Shown here: positions 5,381 through 51,884 of the stretch, piece after piece
Layout of the letters: each line of letters opens with the position of its first letter
Numbering within the stretch: position 1 is the stretch's first letter
Assembly: GCF_001660705.2 (NCBI RefSeq)
Contig: NZ_LYBV02000021.1
Location: 1-64,000 of the forward strand
Reading direction: 5' to 3'
DNA length: 64,000 bases
Source: Saccharicrinis aurantiacus
Lineage (GTDB): Bacteria > Bacteroidota > Bacteroidia > Bacteroidales > Marinilabiliaceae
The notes under the pieces: model-generated
What the model saw: the letters and a program-made list of their open reading frames with translations, nothing else
Databases searched by the model: none
Told to the model about the DNA's origin: nothing
Position numbers and translations under genes: made by a program

Positions 5381-5863
5381 TTATCTATTTATTATTTCGC
5401 GCGATGCTTTGTATTGGTTATACAATTCGGGGTAAGTGTTTTGCGATAGTTCCATTAACAAATCTAGCTTGCCTTTTAGTATATCATTGGCTTCATCTAT
5501 ATGTGCTTCTATCTGTTCGCCAGCATCTCGGCGGTTTACAATGGCACTGCGCACTGTTGTCTGCTTTTCCTTAAAGGTATCAATGGCGTTTTGTAATGCT
5601 ACGGCTCTGTCAACGGTTAATCCTAATGCTTCTGCTGTTGGCTGTATGGCATTGGCATGCTCCATCATTTTGCTGGCACGCACTATTAAAAGCTGCTCTG
5701 ATGAACGGCGTAACTGTGATGCTGTAAAATCAATTTCGTTTAGCAGAATGCCTTGTAATAGCCGCAAAGTGCTTTGTAAACCCTGCAGGATGCTTTGCAA
5801 GCATCGCAGAACAAATTGTAAGCTTTGCAGCAGGCATTGCAGGTATTGCGGAAGGCCTTGTAA
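5381..5863 (-). pseudogene. Small helical protein gene with repeat-expanded 5' end and no clear start codon
   Basis: The frame is open from a stop at 5870-5872 to the stop at 5381, but has no ATG until about 43 residues after the TTG at 5800. Using TTG5800 gives 139 residues: a leucine/glutamine-rich start, a helical middle with TASQLRRSSEQLLIVRASKM, and an end LLMELSQNTYPELYNQYKAS reminiscent of small helical Bacteroidota proteins of unknown function. Upstream of and through TTG5800 the frame is made of six heptads (LQGLPQY, LQCLLQS, LQFVLRC, LQSILQG, LQSTLRL, LQGILLN) encoded by 21-bp repeats. No ribosome site is evident. It is either a gene using a rare start or one whose true start was lost when the repeats arose. 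It precedes the tail-fibre genes on the same strand. Confidence 0.45.
5738..5863 (-). repeat. Six degenerate 21-bp repeats (locus 1)
   Basis: On the minus strand six consecutive 21-base units begin at 5863: TTACAAGGCCTTCCGCAATA(C), CTGCAATGCCTGCTGCAAAG(C), TTACAATTTGTTCTGCGATG(C), TTGCAAAGCATCCTGCAGGG(T), TTACAAAGCACTTTGCGGCT(A), TTACAAGGCATTCTGCTAAA(C). Units 1-5 alternate TTACAA with YTGCAA, giving a 42-bp super-period. Within each unit a TnCAA-like motif recurs about every 10-11 bases. The spacing stays exactly 21, so the reading frame stays open. Confidence 0.8.
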
Positions 5864-23379: not shown

Positions 23380-25650
23380 ATGAACTTTAAATCGCTAATA
23401 AATGTAGGACTGATTGCAACCACTCTTTTAGGAGTGGGTTGTACATCGAGTGCAAATAATCGTGGGTACAGCAAAGATGCTGAGATTAACACTAAAGTAG
23501 AGATGCTACTTTCTAAAATGACCTTAGAGGAAAAGGTAGGTCAAATGAATCAGTACAATGGTTTTTACGATGCTACTGGTCCCGCACCTTCTGATGGTGA
23601 TGCTAAAAATAAATACGAGCATCTGCGCAACGGATGGGTAGGTTCAATGCTTAATGTACGTGGCGCTAAAGAAGTACGTGCCATGCAAAAAATGGCCGTT
23701 GAAGAATCGCGTTTGGGTATTCCTATGATTTTTGGTTTAGATGTAATTCATGGTCATAAAACATTGGCTCCTATTTCATTGGGCGAATCGGCTAGTTGGG
23801 ATTTAGAGGCCATTAAAAAATCGGCTCAGGTAGCTGCCACTGAAGCTGCTGCTGAGGGTATCAACTGGACTTTTGCTCCTATGGTTGACATTTCGCGCGA
23901 TGCCCGTTGGGGACGCGTTATGGAAGGTGCTGGTGAGGATACTTACCTAGGCTCAAAAATCGGAGTAGCACGTATTCAAGGTTTTCAGGGAGATGATTTA
24001 TCAGCAAATAACACCATTGCAGCTTGTGCCAAACACTTTGCAGGATATGGTTTTGCTGAGGCGGGTAGAGATTACAACACCGTTGATGTGGGTACTTCTA
24101 CCTTATACAATGTAATTTTCCCTCCATTCCAGGCTGCGCTTGATGCGGATGTAAAAACAGTGATGAACTCGTTTAATATTTTAAATGGCGTACCAGCCAC
24201 AGGAAACAAGTGGTTACAGCGCGACCTTTTAAAAGGGAAATGGGGCTTTAATGGTTTTGTAATTTCCGATTGGGGAAGTTGTATGGAAATGATGGCGCAT
24301 GGTTTTGCCGCTGATTTAAAAGAAGCTGCCGAATTAGCTGCCAATGCAGGATCGGATATGGATATGGAATCGTATGCTTACGTAAAACATCTATCCACTC
24401 TAGTGAAAGAAGGAAAAGTTAACGAAGCAGATATTGATGATGCGGTACGCAGAATATTAACCGTAAAATATGAGTTAGGCTTATTCGATGATCCTTATAA
24501 ATATTGCGATGAGCAACGCGAACAAGAATTGATCTATCACGAAGATCATAAGGCTGCTGTTTTAGATATGGCGCTTAAATCAGTTGTGTTGCTTAAAAAT
24601 GACAAGCAAGTTTTACCGCTTGATAAATCACAAAAGAAGATTGCTGTAATTGGTGCTTTGGCCAATGATAAAACCAGCCCGCTTGGTAGCTGGCGTGTGG
24701 CTTCTGACGATAATACTGCAGTTTCTGTTTTAGAAGGATTAAAAAATCACAATATAAAATATACTTATGCCAAAGGTGCTGATGTATCGGTAGGTGATGT
24801 TGGTTTTCAAATTCCGGTTACCATCAACAATACCGATAAAAGCGAATTTGCCGAAGCCATTGCTTTAGCTCGTAAATCAGAGGTGGTTGTAATGGTATTG
24901 GGTGAGCATGGTTACCAAAGTGGAGAAGGGCGTAGTCGTACCAACATTGGTTTACCAGGCGTTCAGCAAGAATTATTAGAGGAAGTTTATAAAGTAAATC
25001 AGAATATTGTTTTGGTATTAATGAATGGTCGTCCTTTGGCTTTACCATGGGCCGATGCACACATACCAGCAATACTTGAAACTTGGCAATTGGGCACAGA
25101 AAGTGGTAACGCAATTGCGAAAACTTTATTTGGCGATAACAATCCATCGGGTAAATTACCAATGACTTTCCCACGCAACGTAGCTCAATGCCCTATCTAT
25201 TATAATCACTATAATACAGGTCGTCCAACAGGAGGAAACGGAGTATTCTGGTCGCATTATATCGATGAGTCAAACGATCCATTGTATCCATTTGGTTTTG
25301 GATTAAGCTATACAAGCTTTGAGTATTCAAACCTTAAGGCGAAAGTTGATGGCGATGTGGTTAAAGTAAGCATCACGGTTAAAAATACCGGTAAAGTGGC
25401 CGGACAAGAAGTGGCTCAATTATATATTCACGATAAAGCTGCAAGCGTAGCACGTCCGATTAAAGAATTAAAAGGATTTGAGAAGTTTGAGTTAGCGCCA
25501 AACGATTCAAAGCTTGTGGAATTTGAATTGACTTCGAAAGAATTAGGTTTTTATAATAACGAAGGCGAGTTTGTGGTTGAAGCAGGTGATTTCGACATCA
25601 TGGTTGGAACCGATTCACAAAATGTTTCTATTACTTCAGTTACACTATAA
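23380..25650 (+). CDS. bglX: GH3 beta-glucosidase (BglX-like) lipoprotein
   Basis: A 756-residue GH3 exo-beta-glucosidase. The lipobox ends at C21 (LLGVGC). The N-terminal barrel holds GLDVIHGHKTLAPISLGESA and the nucleophile D297 in FVISDWGS. The C-terminal alpha/beta sandwich follows (VVLLKNDKQVLPLDKSQKK, then VMVLGEHGYQSGEGRSRTNI, where the acid/base Glu is expected), and a fibronectin III-like domain ends the protein. It matches the E. coli BglX layout and length. It should release glucose from beta-1,3-gluco-oligosaccharides in the periplasm or on the inner face of the outer membrane. It closes the locus and a strong terminator follows 34 bases after the stop. Confidence 0.9.
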   Translation: MNFKSLINVGLIATTLLGVGCTSSANNRGYSKDAEINTKVEMLLSKMTLEEKVGQMNQYNGFYDATGPAPSDGDAKNKYEHLRNGWVGSMLNVRGAKEVRAMQKMAVEESRLGIPMIFGLDVIHGHKTLAPISLGESASWDLEAIKKSAQVAATEAAAEGINWTFAPMVDISRDARWGRVMEGAGEDTYLGSKIGVARIQGFQGDDLSANNTIAACAKHFAGYGFAEAGRDYNTVDVGTSTLYNVIFPPFQAALDADVKTVMNSFNILNGVPATGNKWLQRDLLKGKWGFNGFVISDWGSCMEMMAHGFAADLKEAAELAANAGSDMDMESYAYVKHLSTLVKEGKVNEADIDDAVRRILTVKYELGLFDDPYKYCDEQREQELIYHEDHKAAVLDMALKSVVLLKNDKQVLPLDKSQKKIAVIGALANDKTSPLGSWRVASDDNTAVSVLEGLKNHNIKYTYAKGADVSVGDVGFQIPVTINNTDKSEFAEAIALARKSEVVVMVLGEHGYQSGEGRSRTNIGLPGVQQELLEEVYKVNQNIVLVLMNGRPLALPWADAHIPAILETWQLGTESGNAIAKTLFGDNNPSGKLPMTFPRNVAQCPIYYNHYNTGRPTGGNGVFWSHYIDESNDPLYPFGFGLSYTSFEYSNLKAKVDGDVVKVSITVKNTGKVAGQEVAQLYIHDKAASVARPIKELKGFEKFELAPNDSKLVEFELTSKELGFYNNEGEFVVEAGDFDIMVGTDSQNVSITSVTL

Positions 25651-25683
25651 TATCAATCATTCTAATATCAAAAAACTACCATT

Positions 25684-25710
25684 AAGGGTGTTCACTTGTT
25701 GAGCACCCTT
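25684..25710 (+). terminator. Rho-independent terminator of the glycan locus
   Basis: AAGGGTG (25684-25690) pairs with CACCCTT (25704-25710), extended inward by a T-G wobble and three more pairs to give an 11-bp stem with a five-base loop, followed by TTTT. It lies 34 bases past the GH3 stop. Confidence 0.85.
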
Positions 25711-25767
25711 TTTTACTTTTTACTTTTTACTTATCCTGATAAGTGGAATTTTCAATGCTAATGCCGT

Positions 25768-25988
25768 CCGCACTAAGTTTGAAATTTTCCGTACCAATTG
25801 TTGACCGTCCGTACTAATGGTGAACCCAATTGGAACCAAGGTGGAGTTGTCCGTACTAAAGGTTGAGGCATTTGAACACAAGGTTGGACTATCCGTACCA
25901 AAGTGAAGTCGTTTGAACCTAAGGTGGAGTCGTCCGTACCATACTTTACCCGTCCGTACCAATAGTAAGCCGTCCGTACGCGGCTTAC
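25768..25988 (+). repeat. Degenerate ~21-bp repeat array with terminal hairpin (locus 2)
   Basis: A CCGTAC-like motif recurs at 25768, 25789, 25809, 25831 (TGGAAC), 25851, 25872 (TTGAAC), 25893, 25913 (TTGAAC), 25934, 25954 and 25974, spacings 20-22. In the middle, CCGTAC units alternate with TnGAAC units, giving a 41-42 bp super-period (25809, 25851, 25893, 25934). A second word, AAGGTGGA or similar, recurs about 10 bases into many units. The array ends in a hairpin with perfect arms GTAAGCCG (25965-25972) and CGGCTTAC (25981-25988). Units are not identical, unlike a CRISPR array. Confidence 0.85.
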
Positions 25989-26028
25989 AGAAGGTTTTTA
26001 TAGGAATAGGCGATGAGGTAAAACTAAA

Positions 26029-26060
26029 AAGAGGCTGCACCATTTAAGGTACAGCCTCTT
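26029..26060 (-). terminator. Rho-independent terminator of the M16 peptidase genes
   Basis: AAGAGGCTG (26029-26037) and CAGCCTCTT (26052-26060) form a 9-bp stem. On the minus strand it is followed by TTTTTAGTTT. It lies 28 bases past the stop of the peptidase gene at 26088. Confidence 0.85.
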
Positions 26061-26087
26061 GTATATTATTTATTGTTTGAGTACTAA

Positions 26088-28142
26088 TTACTCAAAAATC
26101 TTATCCTCAATTCCTTTGTTTATGATAACCTCAGTAATATTTACATCTATCATTTGAGGTCCCATTGATTGAGTTAGTTTAGTTGGGTACTTGATCCCTT
26201 CAAACTCTTTATACTCACCAAATGTAGTTGTTGATGATCCCATTTCGCTTACACTAACTTCTTTAACTTTTAAGCCTGTTTTAGCATCAAAGTACATTGT
26301 AGTTGCATTTTCAATTGGGTTTGTAACAATTACCTTGTAGGCATCATTACCATCTACTTTATCAACACCAGTAATTTCTAAAGTATATCCTTGCTCAGTA
26401 TAGCTTAATTCAGGAAATAAAATAGCCTGATATTTCATGGTTTCAAGCATCTTACCTTCTAATACTTGCTCCTGACCTTGTGCAGTCATTTTACCAACAG
26501 ATCCATTATAAACTTGCTTGCTTAATAGGTTCTCGCCCATTTTGGTTTCAACACAAATTTTATTAGGTGCTTTTTGGTAAGTATTCATGCTTAATTCCAT
26601 GCCTTGAACTGCTAAGGTGGCGTGTACAGCAACATCATTAACTGTGGCTAGAATCTCTTCTCCACCAATACTCTTAATATGGTTAGCCACTACCTTTTCG
26701 GCAGTTAATCCTACAGGTACGCCTGAACGAACTACTTTATTTGCGTAATAATCATATTCAGTTACCTCAGCACCATTCGCTAATTTTTCCATTAACGGCT
26801 TGGTTACTGAAACATCGCCTACAGCTAAATAAACCGCGTTATCAGGCTTTAAATATTTAGCAGCCATTGCTTGAATATCATCAACCGTAATTGCCTCAAG
26901 ACGCTCCATGTATGTTTCGTAGTAATCAGCAGGTAAGTTGTATTTATCGATATTTACTGCAAAGCTAGCAATGGTAGAGGCGCTTTCTAAAGCACGACCA
27001 AATGAACCGGCTGTAGAATTCTTTACCAATTGTAAAGTTTCTTCGCTTACTTGTTCATCAATCATACGATTCATTTCATAAGCAATCTCTACAAAAGCGC
27101 TATCCGTAATGGTTCCTCTTACATTAGAACTTGCTTTGAAAGTACCTAAATGCTCATCGCTTCTAACTGAAGAATAGGCTCCGTAAGTCCAGGCTTTATC
27201 TTCACGTAAGTTTTGAAATAAACGCGCGCTAAAACTTCCTCCTCCTAAAATAGAGTTCATAACACTTACCTTTAAAGCATCCGGAGTACCCGGTTTTAAA
27301 TCGATAGGGTAGGATACTGAAATAGTGGATTGTGTAGACGCATCTTTATGGGCAATAGCATAAACTGGCTTGTCGATTGATTTTGGCTCAACAAAAGCAT
27401 GTGTAGGAACATCTTTGGCTTCCCATTTAGCAAAGTTCTTTTTGGCTATTTTCTTAGCTTCTTTAACTGTAATATCACCTATAATAACTAGGTAGGCAAC
27501 ATTAGGACGGAAGTAAGTATCGTAATAATTTTTGCAGTCCTCTATGGTGATGTTTTCAATAGTTTCTTCTGAAGTTCCCTCGCCATAAGCAGTCTCCTTG
27601 CCAAACATTAAAGCTTGCGACACATTTCTGCTAATTGATTTTGGGTTGTCTTTATCGCTTTTAATACCTGTTAAAGTTTGCTTCACCATTTTATCAAGCT
27701 CTTCCTCAGGAAAAGAAGGATTGTAAAGTATATCCGTCATTAAAGCCAATGTTTCTTCAGAGTGCTTCTTTAACGAGCTTGCATAAATTCCATTTCCACT
27801 AGTACTTATTGATGCACCAATGAAATCAATTTTCTCGTCAATCTGATCTTTACTTAAAGTTGTAGTACCTGTACCTAATAAATCTCCAGCAAAGCCAATA
27901 TATCCGGCCTTATCACCTTCGTAAATCGGATCGATATCTAAGGATAAAGTATAAGAAACAACCGGTAGTTTATGGTTTTCAACCACAATTACCTTCAGTC
28001 CGTTTTTTAACTCAAACTTGGTGTACTCACCTAAGTTTAATTTAGTAGCTACTCCTGCTTTGGGAGCACTTGTTCTATCTATTTGTGCTTGAATTGAAAT
28101 TACTGACAAAAGCGCCAATAATAATATGCTTAATTTTTTCAT
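26088..28142 (-). CDS. M16 peptidase-like protein, non-catalytic subunit with an extra C-terminal domain
   Basis: A 684-residue exported protein (signal peptide ends SIQA). Two M16 halves cover residues ~30-460 (YTKFELKNGLKVIVVENHKL, then VMNSILGGGSFSARLFQNLR), but the zinc motif HxxEH is absent where expected (GYIGFAGDLLGTGTTT). The residual ~210 residues (from VANHIKSIGGEEILATVNDV) are beta-rich and look like a LolA/outer-membrane lipoprotein sorting-type fold, ending FEGIKYPTKLTQSMGPQM; that fold call is a guess. It is 30 bases downstream of the catalytic subunit gene, so the two probably form a heterodimer that degrades peptides in the periplasm. Confidence 0.82.
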   Translation of the reverse strand: MKKLSILLLALLSVISIQAQIDRTSAPKAGVATKLNLGEYTKFELKNGLKVIVVENHKLPVVSYTLSLDIDPIYEGDKAGYIGFAGDLLGTGTTTLSKDQIDEKIDFIGASISTSGNGIYASSLKKHSEETLALMTDILYNPSFPEEELDKMVKQTLTGIKSDKDNPKSISRNVSQALMFGKETAYGEGTSEETIENITIEDCKNYYDTYFRPNVAYLVIIGDITVKEAKKIAKKNFAKWEAKDVPTHAFVEPKSIDKPVYAIAHKDASTQSTISVSYPIDLKPGTPDALKVSVMNSILGGGSFSARLFQNLREDKAWTYGAYSSVRSDEHLGTFKASSNVRGTITDSAFVEIAYEMNRMIDEQVSEETLQLVKNSTAGSFGRALESASTIASFAVNIDKYNLPADYYETYMERLEAITVDDIQAMAAKYLKPDNAVYLAVGDVSVTKPLMEKLANGAEVTEYDYYANKVVRSGVPVGLTAEKVVANHIKSIGGEEILATVNDVAVHATLAVQGMELSMNTYQKAPNKICVETKMGENLLSKQVYNGSVGKMTAQGQEQVLEGKMLETMKYQAILFPELSYTEQGYTLEITGVDKVDGNDAYKVIVTNPIENATTMYFDAKTGLKVKEVSVSEMGSSTTTFGEYKEFEGIKYPTKLTQSMGPQMIDVNITEVIINKGIEDKIFE

Positions 28143-49177: not shown

Positions 49178-49208
49178 GCTTCAATATGAACAGCTATTTC
49201 ATAAAATA

Positions 49209-49301
49209 TTGCGTCATCGCGATGAAAGAAGCGATCTCAAGGCGAGATGTAAAATAGGGCGCCTTGAGATGGCCACGTTCCTCACCATGACGAGGCGCAA
49301 A
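49209..49301. repeat. REP-like inverted repeat pair, copy D
   Basis: The plus arm, 49209-49252, begins TTGCGTCATCGCGATGAAAG and includes GCGATCTCAAGGCG. The minus arm, 49259-49301, read on the other strand begins TTGCGCCTCGTCATGGTGAG and also ends CATCTCAAGGCGCC. Its first 14 bases equal copy A at the window start. The two face each other across ~6 bases and could form a long hairpin inside the thi transcript, between thiG and thiH. Confidence 0.7.
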
Positions 49302-51230: not shown

Positions 51231-51884
51231 TGATGTTTCAGTAACTGAACTTACCTTTTATTGTAAGGTAGTGTTTGGGATGGTATTATATAGTTCTATA
51301 TATGGGCCAAATTCTTGCCAGAAGTCATATATAGTACTGTTTATTGCCCTAATTTCAGGCAGAAGCCAATATATAGAATTATGTATGGGCTAAATTCTTG
51401 CCCCATGGCCTATACAGTACTATGTATAGGTCAAATTCTTGCCATAAGCGTTTTTATAGTTTTATGTAGCCTTCCCTTTTGCGCCGCTTACAAAATATAG
51501 TACTATGTAAGCCGCAAAATGAGATGGGTATTTAAAACTAGTTGTGTAATAACAACTCTTTTAATACGAAACATTAATCTATAACGATGGTGATTGTTAT
51601 ATTTTTCATCACACCATTAATAGAAAGAACTAAAGGATGGGGTGAGCTCTAAGCCTTTATGCCAAATACCTTTTATTTGTTGTGTTCCCATTTGAAATTA
51701 AAACACTTGTCTTGAAGTAAATATATTTATCTCGAAAATTACACCAATTTTATTAATCATTGTATTTGCTATTCCTACTGATTAATAATAAGTTTACTAG
51801 TAGCTAACGATATATTACATCATATTTTAAATTGATAAGTAATCCCTTATTGATCATTTATGTTAATGCTTAAACCCCTACATC
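51231..51884. other. Intergenic region with the 41-42-bp repeat array
   Basis: The 654 bases hold a repeat array (51289-51515) and an AT-rich tail to 51884. AGTTGTGTAATAACAACT at 51540-51557 is a 6-bp hairpin followed by CTTTTAAT and may terminate upstream transcription. No gene is called; a 61-codon plus-strand frame at 51315-51500 follows the array only. Confidence 0.7.
51289..51515 (+). repeat. Degenerate 41-42-bp repeat array (locus 3)
   Basis: A TATAGTACTAT-like word recurs at 51291, 51332, 51374, 51415, 51457 and 51498 (spacings 41, 42, 41, 42, 41). Each double unit is followed by a word like GGGCCAAATTCTTGCC and then AGAAGCC. The period equals twice the 20-21-bp unit of the array at 25768. 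The last unit is bounded by CCGCTTACA (51484-51492) and TGTAAGCCGC (51506-51515), nearly complementary. The same GCTTAC/GTAAGC word bounds locus 2. Confidence 0.85.

Follow-up and report, generated by a model that had tools for sequence, protein, structure and literature searches.

A worn intergenic array of 20–22-bp units in Saccharicrinis aurantiacus and the preference of other tandem arrays for similar periods

The spacer between two convergent genes of Saccharicrinis aurantiacus contains a degenerate array of eleven related units of 20–22 bp, which alternate in the middle of the array and give a super-period of 41–42 bp. It was found in a window of 64,000 nucleotides (assembly GCF_001660705.2, contig NZ_LYBV02000021.1, positions 1 to 64,000). 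Seen by itself, the array looks like any worn minisatellite; what is unusual is that arrays of other sequence in the same genome have its period in common. Within the 28% of this genome that was read, noncoding DNA holds a population of tandem arrays with a preference for base periods close to those of the window array. The preferred reading, to which we give an even chance, is that the array is a DNA-level minisatellite with fast turnover, the copy length of which is fixed by increments of about 20.5 bp.

Structure of the array and its surroundings

The eleven units start at positions 25767, 25788, 25808, 25830, 25850, 25872, 25892, 25913, 25933, 25953, and 25973, with spacings of 21, 20, 22, 20, 22, 20, 21, 20, 20, and 20 bp (mean 20.6). 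Seven of them carry TCCGTAC, one carries TCCGCAC, and three are of the TnGAAC type, with the alternation of A and B types restricted to units 3–9. TRF gives a period of 42 at 25807–25939 (score 132) and, at the end of the array, a period of 20 at 25931–25979 (score 61). Banded self-alignment of the gap reached 38.6 at offset 40, whereas 1000 dinucleotide shuffles averaged 9.0 and never exceeded 16.2; the array itself scored 16.4 at offsets 19–23, where the best of 1000 shuffles scored 11.6. The similarity of half-periods has a z of 5.3 in the window array and of −1.1 to 2.9 in 13 other arrays of 41–83 bp (pooled value 3.9, window array included), which makes it the clearest case showing both scales.

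Table 1. Features of the array and of the gap that contains it
Feature	Position	Strand	Evidence
Degenerate array, eleven 20–22-bp units, A-type TCCGTAC... and B-type TTGAAC...	25767..25992	no strand	sequence, TRF, unit list, self-alignment
A/B-alternating units 3–9, 41–42-bp super-period	25808..25952	no strand	TRF and unit list
Terminal perfect inverted repeat GTAAGCCG / CGGCTTAC, 8+8 bp	25965..25988	no strand	sequence
Small inverted repeat CTTATC-CT-GATAAG, near the opposite array edge	25730..25743	no strand	sequence
Glycoside hydrolase family 3 (GH3) gene, flanking	23380..25650	+	Pfam PF00933/PF01915
M16 peptidase gene, flanking, convergent	26088..28142	-	Pfam PF05193/PF00675
Terminator-like site after the GH3 gene, ahead of the array, 25684–25710 with T-run	25684..25716	+	consensus scan
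Terminator-like site after the M16 gene, opposite strand	26029..26060	-	consensus scan

The TCCGTAC core has a single mismatch over the eight A units, against 45 in all 20 unit columns together, and its conservation has a p of 0.0018 with the B units added, although the register of the A units was set on this very motif and is thus biased toward finding it conserved. The kept core suggests, short of proof, that something still reads the units. The array is closed by a perfect hairpin, which has the core of the last unit as its 8-nt loop and pairs, fully or partly, in folds of both strands. RNA folding of the array was no better than that of shuffles (z −0.29 on the plus strand and +1.50 on the minus strand).

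The spacing had been taken by the earlier note to suggest a role on one face of the helix. At 10.5 bp per turn this applies to the first eight units (R 0.96), whereas the last three drift out of phase, by 137 degrees at the end, and R for all eleven units is 0.75. The best fit over all eleven lies at 10.3–10.4 bp per turn. By geometry, arrays with units of 22–23 bp would not stay on one helix face.

The stops of the GH3 gene (25650) and the M16 gene (26088) enclose a gap of 437 bp. Since the array is located between two opposing terminator-like sites, neither gene should transcribe its DNA, and transcription would stop before the array is reached. Pfam assigns the six genes around the array to GH16, GH2, GH3, M16, M16, and GH3. 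A 107-aa open reading frame (25720–26043, minus strand) crosses the array and is probably not a gene, since Pfam finds nothing in it and its phase is broken by the 20- and 22-bp steps. A low-complexity inverted pair of 20 nt at 80% (25716–25735/26012–26031) surrounds the array, and a second, similar pair overlaps it. The layout described in the earlier note was borne out: the eleven units 20–22 bp apart with their 41–42-bp super-period agree with the unit list, TRF, and self-alignment above shuffles, and the alternation in the middle, the perfect terminal hairpin, and the convergent gap of 437 bases were all recovered. Its view that the array is not coding stands as probable.

Uniqueness of the locus and its absence in relatives

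The flanks of the window array are near-unique. When the whole genome was searched with a 451-bp query spanning the array, one other place fell below E 0.05, and this match lies inside the array only. It covers 68 bp at 73% (G000:C67:115784-115851, where G000 is the S. aurantiacus genome), with an E of 0.027 for the 451-bp query and of 0.0155 in another search. The matched segment sits between two open reading frames and includes the units CATCCGTACTATGTTGGAAC and CGTCCGTACCGAGGGTGAGC; it is probably a second, short set of units with the same core. The pattern CCGTAC-gap-CNGNAC is not enriched in the genome, with 7 occurrences compared with 13 for the reversed control.

Homologues of the M16 gene were inspected at 17 loci (L193–L209, which include the genomes G003, G004, and G007). 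None of the 17, several of which end at contig ends, has a TRF array of period 20–22 or 41–42; TRF repeats of 11–15 bp only were present, at four loci. At E 1e-80, an M16 match was absent in four of eight sister genomes. The nearest named M16 relatives are those of Labilibacter sediminis (70%) and Plebeiobacterium sediminum (63%), and neither species has such an array beside M16. BLAST of the array against 149 genomes gave, outside its own genome, matches of about 18–33 bases, and among 29 loci from this and the own-genome search that were inspected by eye, repeated units were seen in L002 only. The array is therefore not conserved beside the M16 homologues examined, and a conserved operator at the orthologous place is rejected on the same 17 loci.

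Tandem arrays in the S. aurantiacus genome

The scan of the own genome covered 1.64 Mb read in stretches, or 28% of the genome with the window included. Noncoding DNA was searched by banded self-alignment with open reading frames of at least 150 aa masked and a score cut-off of 18, and 35 tandem arrays were found in 246 kb of noncoding DNA. The shuffle control comes from an earlier pass, in which the mask began at 90 aa and segments were a little shorter; one of its 1337 shuffled segments reached 18. That pass missed the window array, which was hidden by the 107-aa open reading frame. Applied to 1.396 Mb of coding DNA, the scan yielded 10 arrays, 20-fold fewer per base than in noncoding DNA. 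Among the nine coding arrays with a period of 17 or more, seven periods are multiples of 3 and one falls within the period bins. The noncoding arrays were found in long gaps. Of 24 arrays considered for the orientation of their neighbours, three could not be placed, and six of the 21 placed (window array included) lie in convergent gaps, an enrichment too weak to build on (p about 0.05).

Repeated 8-mers in the noncoding part of the first 0.86 Mb recur most widely at a lag of 21 (12 loci), followed by lags of 14 (10 loci), 41 and 42 (nine loci each), and 83 (eight loci); most other lags were seen at 1–5 loci. The raw best offset falls in 20–22 or 40–43 for 13 of the 35 arrays, and higher-order units occur at 82, 124, and 126 bp, all multiples of 41–42. 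The signal at 20–22 and 41–42 bp that the earlier note proposed to look for in intergenic DNA was thus present in the part of the genome read.

For the period test, four arrays with a period of 16 or less and the window array itself were excluded, as were L147 (crossed by an open frame), L103 (which BLAST placed with a heptamer repeat), and window 5743–5860 (21-bp steps that keep the frame). Four pairs of related copies were merged, leaving 23 sequence families. Eight families have a base period of 41–42 (L090, L078, L134/L167, L152, L095, window 51287, L098, and L097), seven have a base period of 21–23 (L135, L084/L102, L153, L155, L170/L099, L132, and L105), and the remaining eight have periods of 83, 83, 115, 18, 92, 68, 31, and 97–99. 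Base periods of 19–23 or 39–44, bins wider than the 20–22 and 41–42 of the earlier note, account for 15 of the 23 families (uniform p 1.3e-10, log-uniform p 1.2e-6), and the strict bins of 20–22 or 40–43 for 13 of 23 (log-uniform p 2.5e-7). These counts include harmonics assigned by hand from sub-scores, post hoc, with 82, 83 (window 51287), 124, and 126–128 taken to 41–42 and 69 (L099) taken to 23. Without hand assignment, raw best offsets in the strict bins leave nine of 23 families (log-uniform p 6.7e-4). Merging L095 with window 51287, which look alike by eye, gives 14 of 22 families (p 4.1e-6).

The arrays differ in the symmetry of their units. Inverted matches exceed all 30 base shuffles in L084, L102, L153, L155, L170, L099, and L132, seven arrays of 22–23-bp units, several of which are related to each other, and likewise in L174 (21 bp), so the units of these arrays occur in both orientations or are palindromic. 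Among the 41–42-bp arrays, L098 and the 41-bp array of sister genome G004 are above shuffles. No such excess over all 30 base shuffles is seen in L135 (21 bp) or in the 22-bp array of G004, and L090, L078, L134, L152, L095, window 51287, L173, and the window array stay within the shuffles. Over 25 arrays, dyad symmetry is above column-permuted controls that do not keep dinucleotides (Stouffer 5.6). The window array has no dyad excess (z −0.23), and its inverted match is 8.4 against a shuffle mean of 9.8.

Several further repeats were recorded. A second intergenic array of the window (51287–51468) has a best offset of 83, a 42-bp sub-period, and units like TATAGTACTATGTATGGGCCAAATTCTTGCCAGAAG; the segment it resembles by eye is L095 3619–3793. 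The 21-bp repeats at window 5743–5860, which lack frame shifts, are possibly a heptad-repeat coding stretch. At window 49195–49301, about 110 bp are 81% like sequence beside the L090 array, and L144 has a stretch like it; this is a dispersed repeat. Another dispersed repeat of 75 bp (L152 12850–12923, GGGTCGTGCTTTTCGCTATATC...) has nine further copies of 67–75 nt within the sequence read, and in four of the 10 copies a 22- or 41-bp array follows 42–141 bp downstream in the same orientation; L084 and L102 among the four are related loci, and the L145 copy shows only 153 bp of downstream sequence. L134 13450–14100 and L167 7400–8050, which are 92.6% alike over 635 bp, are two dispersed copies of a region where 42-bp units build up a 126-bp higher-order repeat. 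Heptamer repeats (CTTGATA and look-alikes) recur at L134 5257, L135 17221, L170 935, L103 10863, and L102 12708, and L090 14485–14584 consists of TACCTAC repeated 14 times without mismatch, about 140–150 bp from the 41-bp array there.

Arrays in other genomes

The comparison DNA comprised 160 kb of sister genome G004, 240 kb of sister genome G003, and 200 kb of G013 from the same family, and in addition 200 kb of G072, which belongs to another family, and 180 kb of three other Bacteroidia. Controls were 450 kb of a Vibrio chromid in nine 50-kb stretches and 50 kb of E. coli K-12. G004 was reached through a CCGTAC pair pattern and contains a pair of intergenic arrays separated by about 3 kb, one with the 22-bp unit TCTGAAAACTCCGTACGCCCGT (6.3 copies) and one with a 41-bp unit (3.6 copies). 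Noncoding arrays scoring 18 or more number four in G004, three in G003, five in G072, four in G013, and one in the other Bacteroidia, with none in Vibrio (63 kb noncoding) or E. coli (6 kb noncoding). The raw best offset is 20–22 or 40–43 in three of four arrays of G004, one of three of G003, one of five of G072, none of four of G013, and not in the one array of the other Bacteroidia. In G072, two of the five arrays have periods of 42 and 63, the latter with a sub-score at 21. Fifty further loci of relatives (263 kb, of which 27 kb noncoding) contained no array at score 18, and G003 lacks 8-mer lag peaks like those of G000. The trait is patchy across genomes. G003 also has a 384-bp tandem repeat at L131 2590–4210 (4.2 copies, 98% alike), outside open reading frames of at least 120 aa.

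Comparison with known repeat systems

Porphyromonas gingivalis belongs to the same bacterial class as S. aurantiacus. One paper on this species reports 41-, 23-, and 22-nt tandem direct repeats in strain W83, with a 23-nt intergenic minisatellite in the MITE BrickBuilt and a 41-nt repeat in MITE464/PgRS, and describes the 23- and 41-nt repeats as sharing no homology (PMC4596501). According to the same paper, BrickBuilt is always intergenic, 10 of its 19 copies have predicted flanking terminators and/or polyadenylation sites, and both kinds of repeat belong to dispersed MITEs whose terminal repeats are IS5-like (PMC4596501). The window array resembles BrickBuilt and PgRS, as far as they are described there, in its imperfect intergenic tandem direct repeats and 41–42-bp super-period. 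In contrast to BrickBuilt it has no 23-bp unit, and in contrast to both MITEs its flanks are near-unique and its ends show no clear terminal repeats. Because the P. gingivalis repeats of 22, 23, and 41 nt match the lengths found here, the kind is partly known, and the statement of the earlier note that no named family has this layout was too strong. A MITE is nevertheless rejected for the window array, since its flanks are near-unique and the whole-genome search found no dispersed copies with common ends. On the shared period of unrelated arrays, the only relevant literature obtained was PMC4596501 and PMC3733652, from a search with most subscription journals outside its reach.

REP and BIME elements, as PMC3733652 describes them, are small repeats outside genes that often separate unidirectional or convergent genes; REPs are palindromes with stems of 5–13 bp, and CGTC-tagged REPs are reported in Bacteroidetes. 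Judged by that description, the window array is likewise small, extragenic, and between convergent genes, but its units are direct and not palindromic. REP-like palindromes hold for several of the other arrays and are rejected for the window array on its dyad score and inverted match. Four Y1_Tnp matches exist in the genome, and comparison of their surroundings with the array regions gave short BLAST matches (best E 5e-4).

Plasmid iterons and operator arrays are direct repeats of about 20–22 bp placed about two helical turns apart. The window array shares this unit length and spacing with iterons; unlike them, it has no replication initiator among the six surrounding genes tested with Pfam. 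CRISPR arrays are regularly spaced and combine a constant repeat with unrelated spacers. The window array is also regularly spaced, but CRISPR is rejected, as the earlier note had held, because there is no constant repeat with unrelated spacers, the unit length varies between 20 and 22, and all units are mutually related. TIGR arrays are linked to Nop-domain Tas proteins, and no Nop (PF01798) match was found in the genome, so this type is rejected. A known structured RNA is rejected because none of the six Rfam matches to 25400–26300 (E up to 1) reached its gathering score. A phage or plasmid origin is likewise rejected, as comparison with phages and plasmids gave short matches only, at E 0.2 or worse. 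A coding repeat is rejected because spacings of 20, 21, and 22 shift the frame and the crossing open reading frame has no Pfam match, and an RNA hairpin array because it has no fold signal.

Alternative explanations

Two alternatives, both unlikely, are the main rivals of the preferred reading. In one, a sequence-specific protein would bind the TCCGTAC cores about every two turns and form a filament or boundary between the convergent genes, with spacing and core kept by selection at the locus. The well-kept core beside drifting unit remainders, the phasing of the first eight units, and the short second set with the same core (E 0.0155) are consistent with it. However, the phase is lost in the last three units, the core pair pattern is rarer in the genome than its reversed control, no TRF array of such a period adjoins the 17 M16 homologues, several of them at contig ends, and a single sequence-specific protein cannot explain a period common to arrays unrelated in sequence. 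The other, of similarly low probability, is neutral slippage with no ruler and no function, the common period being a sampling accident or the product of a few dispersed families. The degenerate units, the location of arrays in long gaps, the M16 homologues without an adjoining array, and the few arrays within the bins in most other genomes sampled agree with such an origin. Against it, two narrow period bands hold most of the 23 families and nine of them even by raw best offset, the same bands occur in G004 and G072, and repeats of 22, 23, and 41 nt are reported in P. gingivalis (PMC4596501).

A remnant of a mobile element, either a MITE with an internal minisatellite of the BrickBuilt/PgRS type or a REP/BIME cluster spread by RAYT, is distinctly improbable. 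P. gingivalis MITEs do contain 23- and 41-nt arrays (PMC4596501), some other arrays of this genome are dispersed with their flanks (L134/L167) or adjoin the 75-bp repeat, and four Y1_Tnp matches, candidates for a RAYT, are present. For the window array, though, the 451-bp query found below E 0.05 only the 68 bp inside the array, the inverted pairs around it are of low complexity, and the units lack palindromic symmetry. Hairpins of RNA or single-stranded DNA acting on mRNA ends are the least probable reading, one with hardly any likelihood left: the perfect terminal hairpin and the palindromic or inverted units of L174, L132, L153, and L170 would fit it, but folding is unremarkable on both strands, the window array has no dyad excess, and the terminator-like site of each gene comes before it. 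The earlier note had also raised the prospect of a single local oddity, and here the answer is divided, since the locus is without counterpart in the relatives examined while arrays of the same period recur.

Proposed origin and significance

In the preferred reading of a fast-turnover minisatellite, the window array would be an old member of a population of intergenic tandem arrays, the unit sequences of which are mostly unrelated and the unit lengths of which favour about 20–23 bp and 41–42 bp. It most likely arose and grew through tandem duplications of about 20.5 bp at a time, and of the 41-bp dimer, in a spacer that neither neighbouring gene should transcribe, and would then have decayed unit by unit. 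The best account of the length step would be a ruler that does not depend on sequence and spans about two helical turns, as the period statistics suggest. Such a ruler could lie in the geometry of strand exchange or slippage, or it could be a protein that binds at intervals of two turns and limits which duplications survive.

Minisatellite unit lengths are usually regarded as arbitrary. If unrelated arrays keep returning to 20–23 and 41–42 bp, something other than sequence would set their length; candidates are the physics of duplication itself and proteins that pack DNA, or bridge it, at intervals of two turns. It is a tentative proposal, held with less confidence than the reading of the window array itself, that some Bacteroidota build intergenic satellites on a length quantum of roughly two helical turns (20–23 bp, with dimers of 41–42) that does not depend on sequence and is common to arrays without common sequence and to separate families. 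If true, the P. gingivalis repeats of 22, 23, and 41 nt reported in PMC4596501 would join a wider pattern, and a ruler, dedicated or architectural, would have to act in duplication or DNA packaging.
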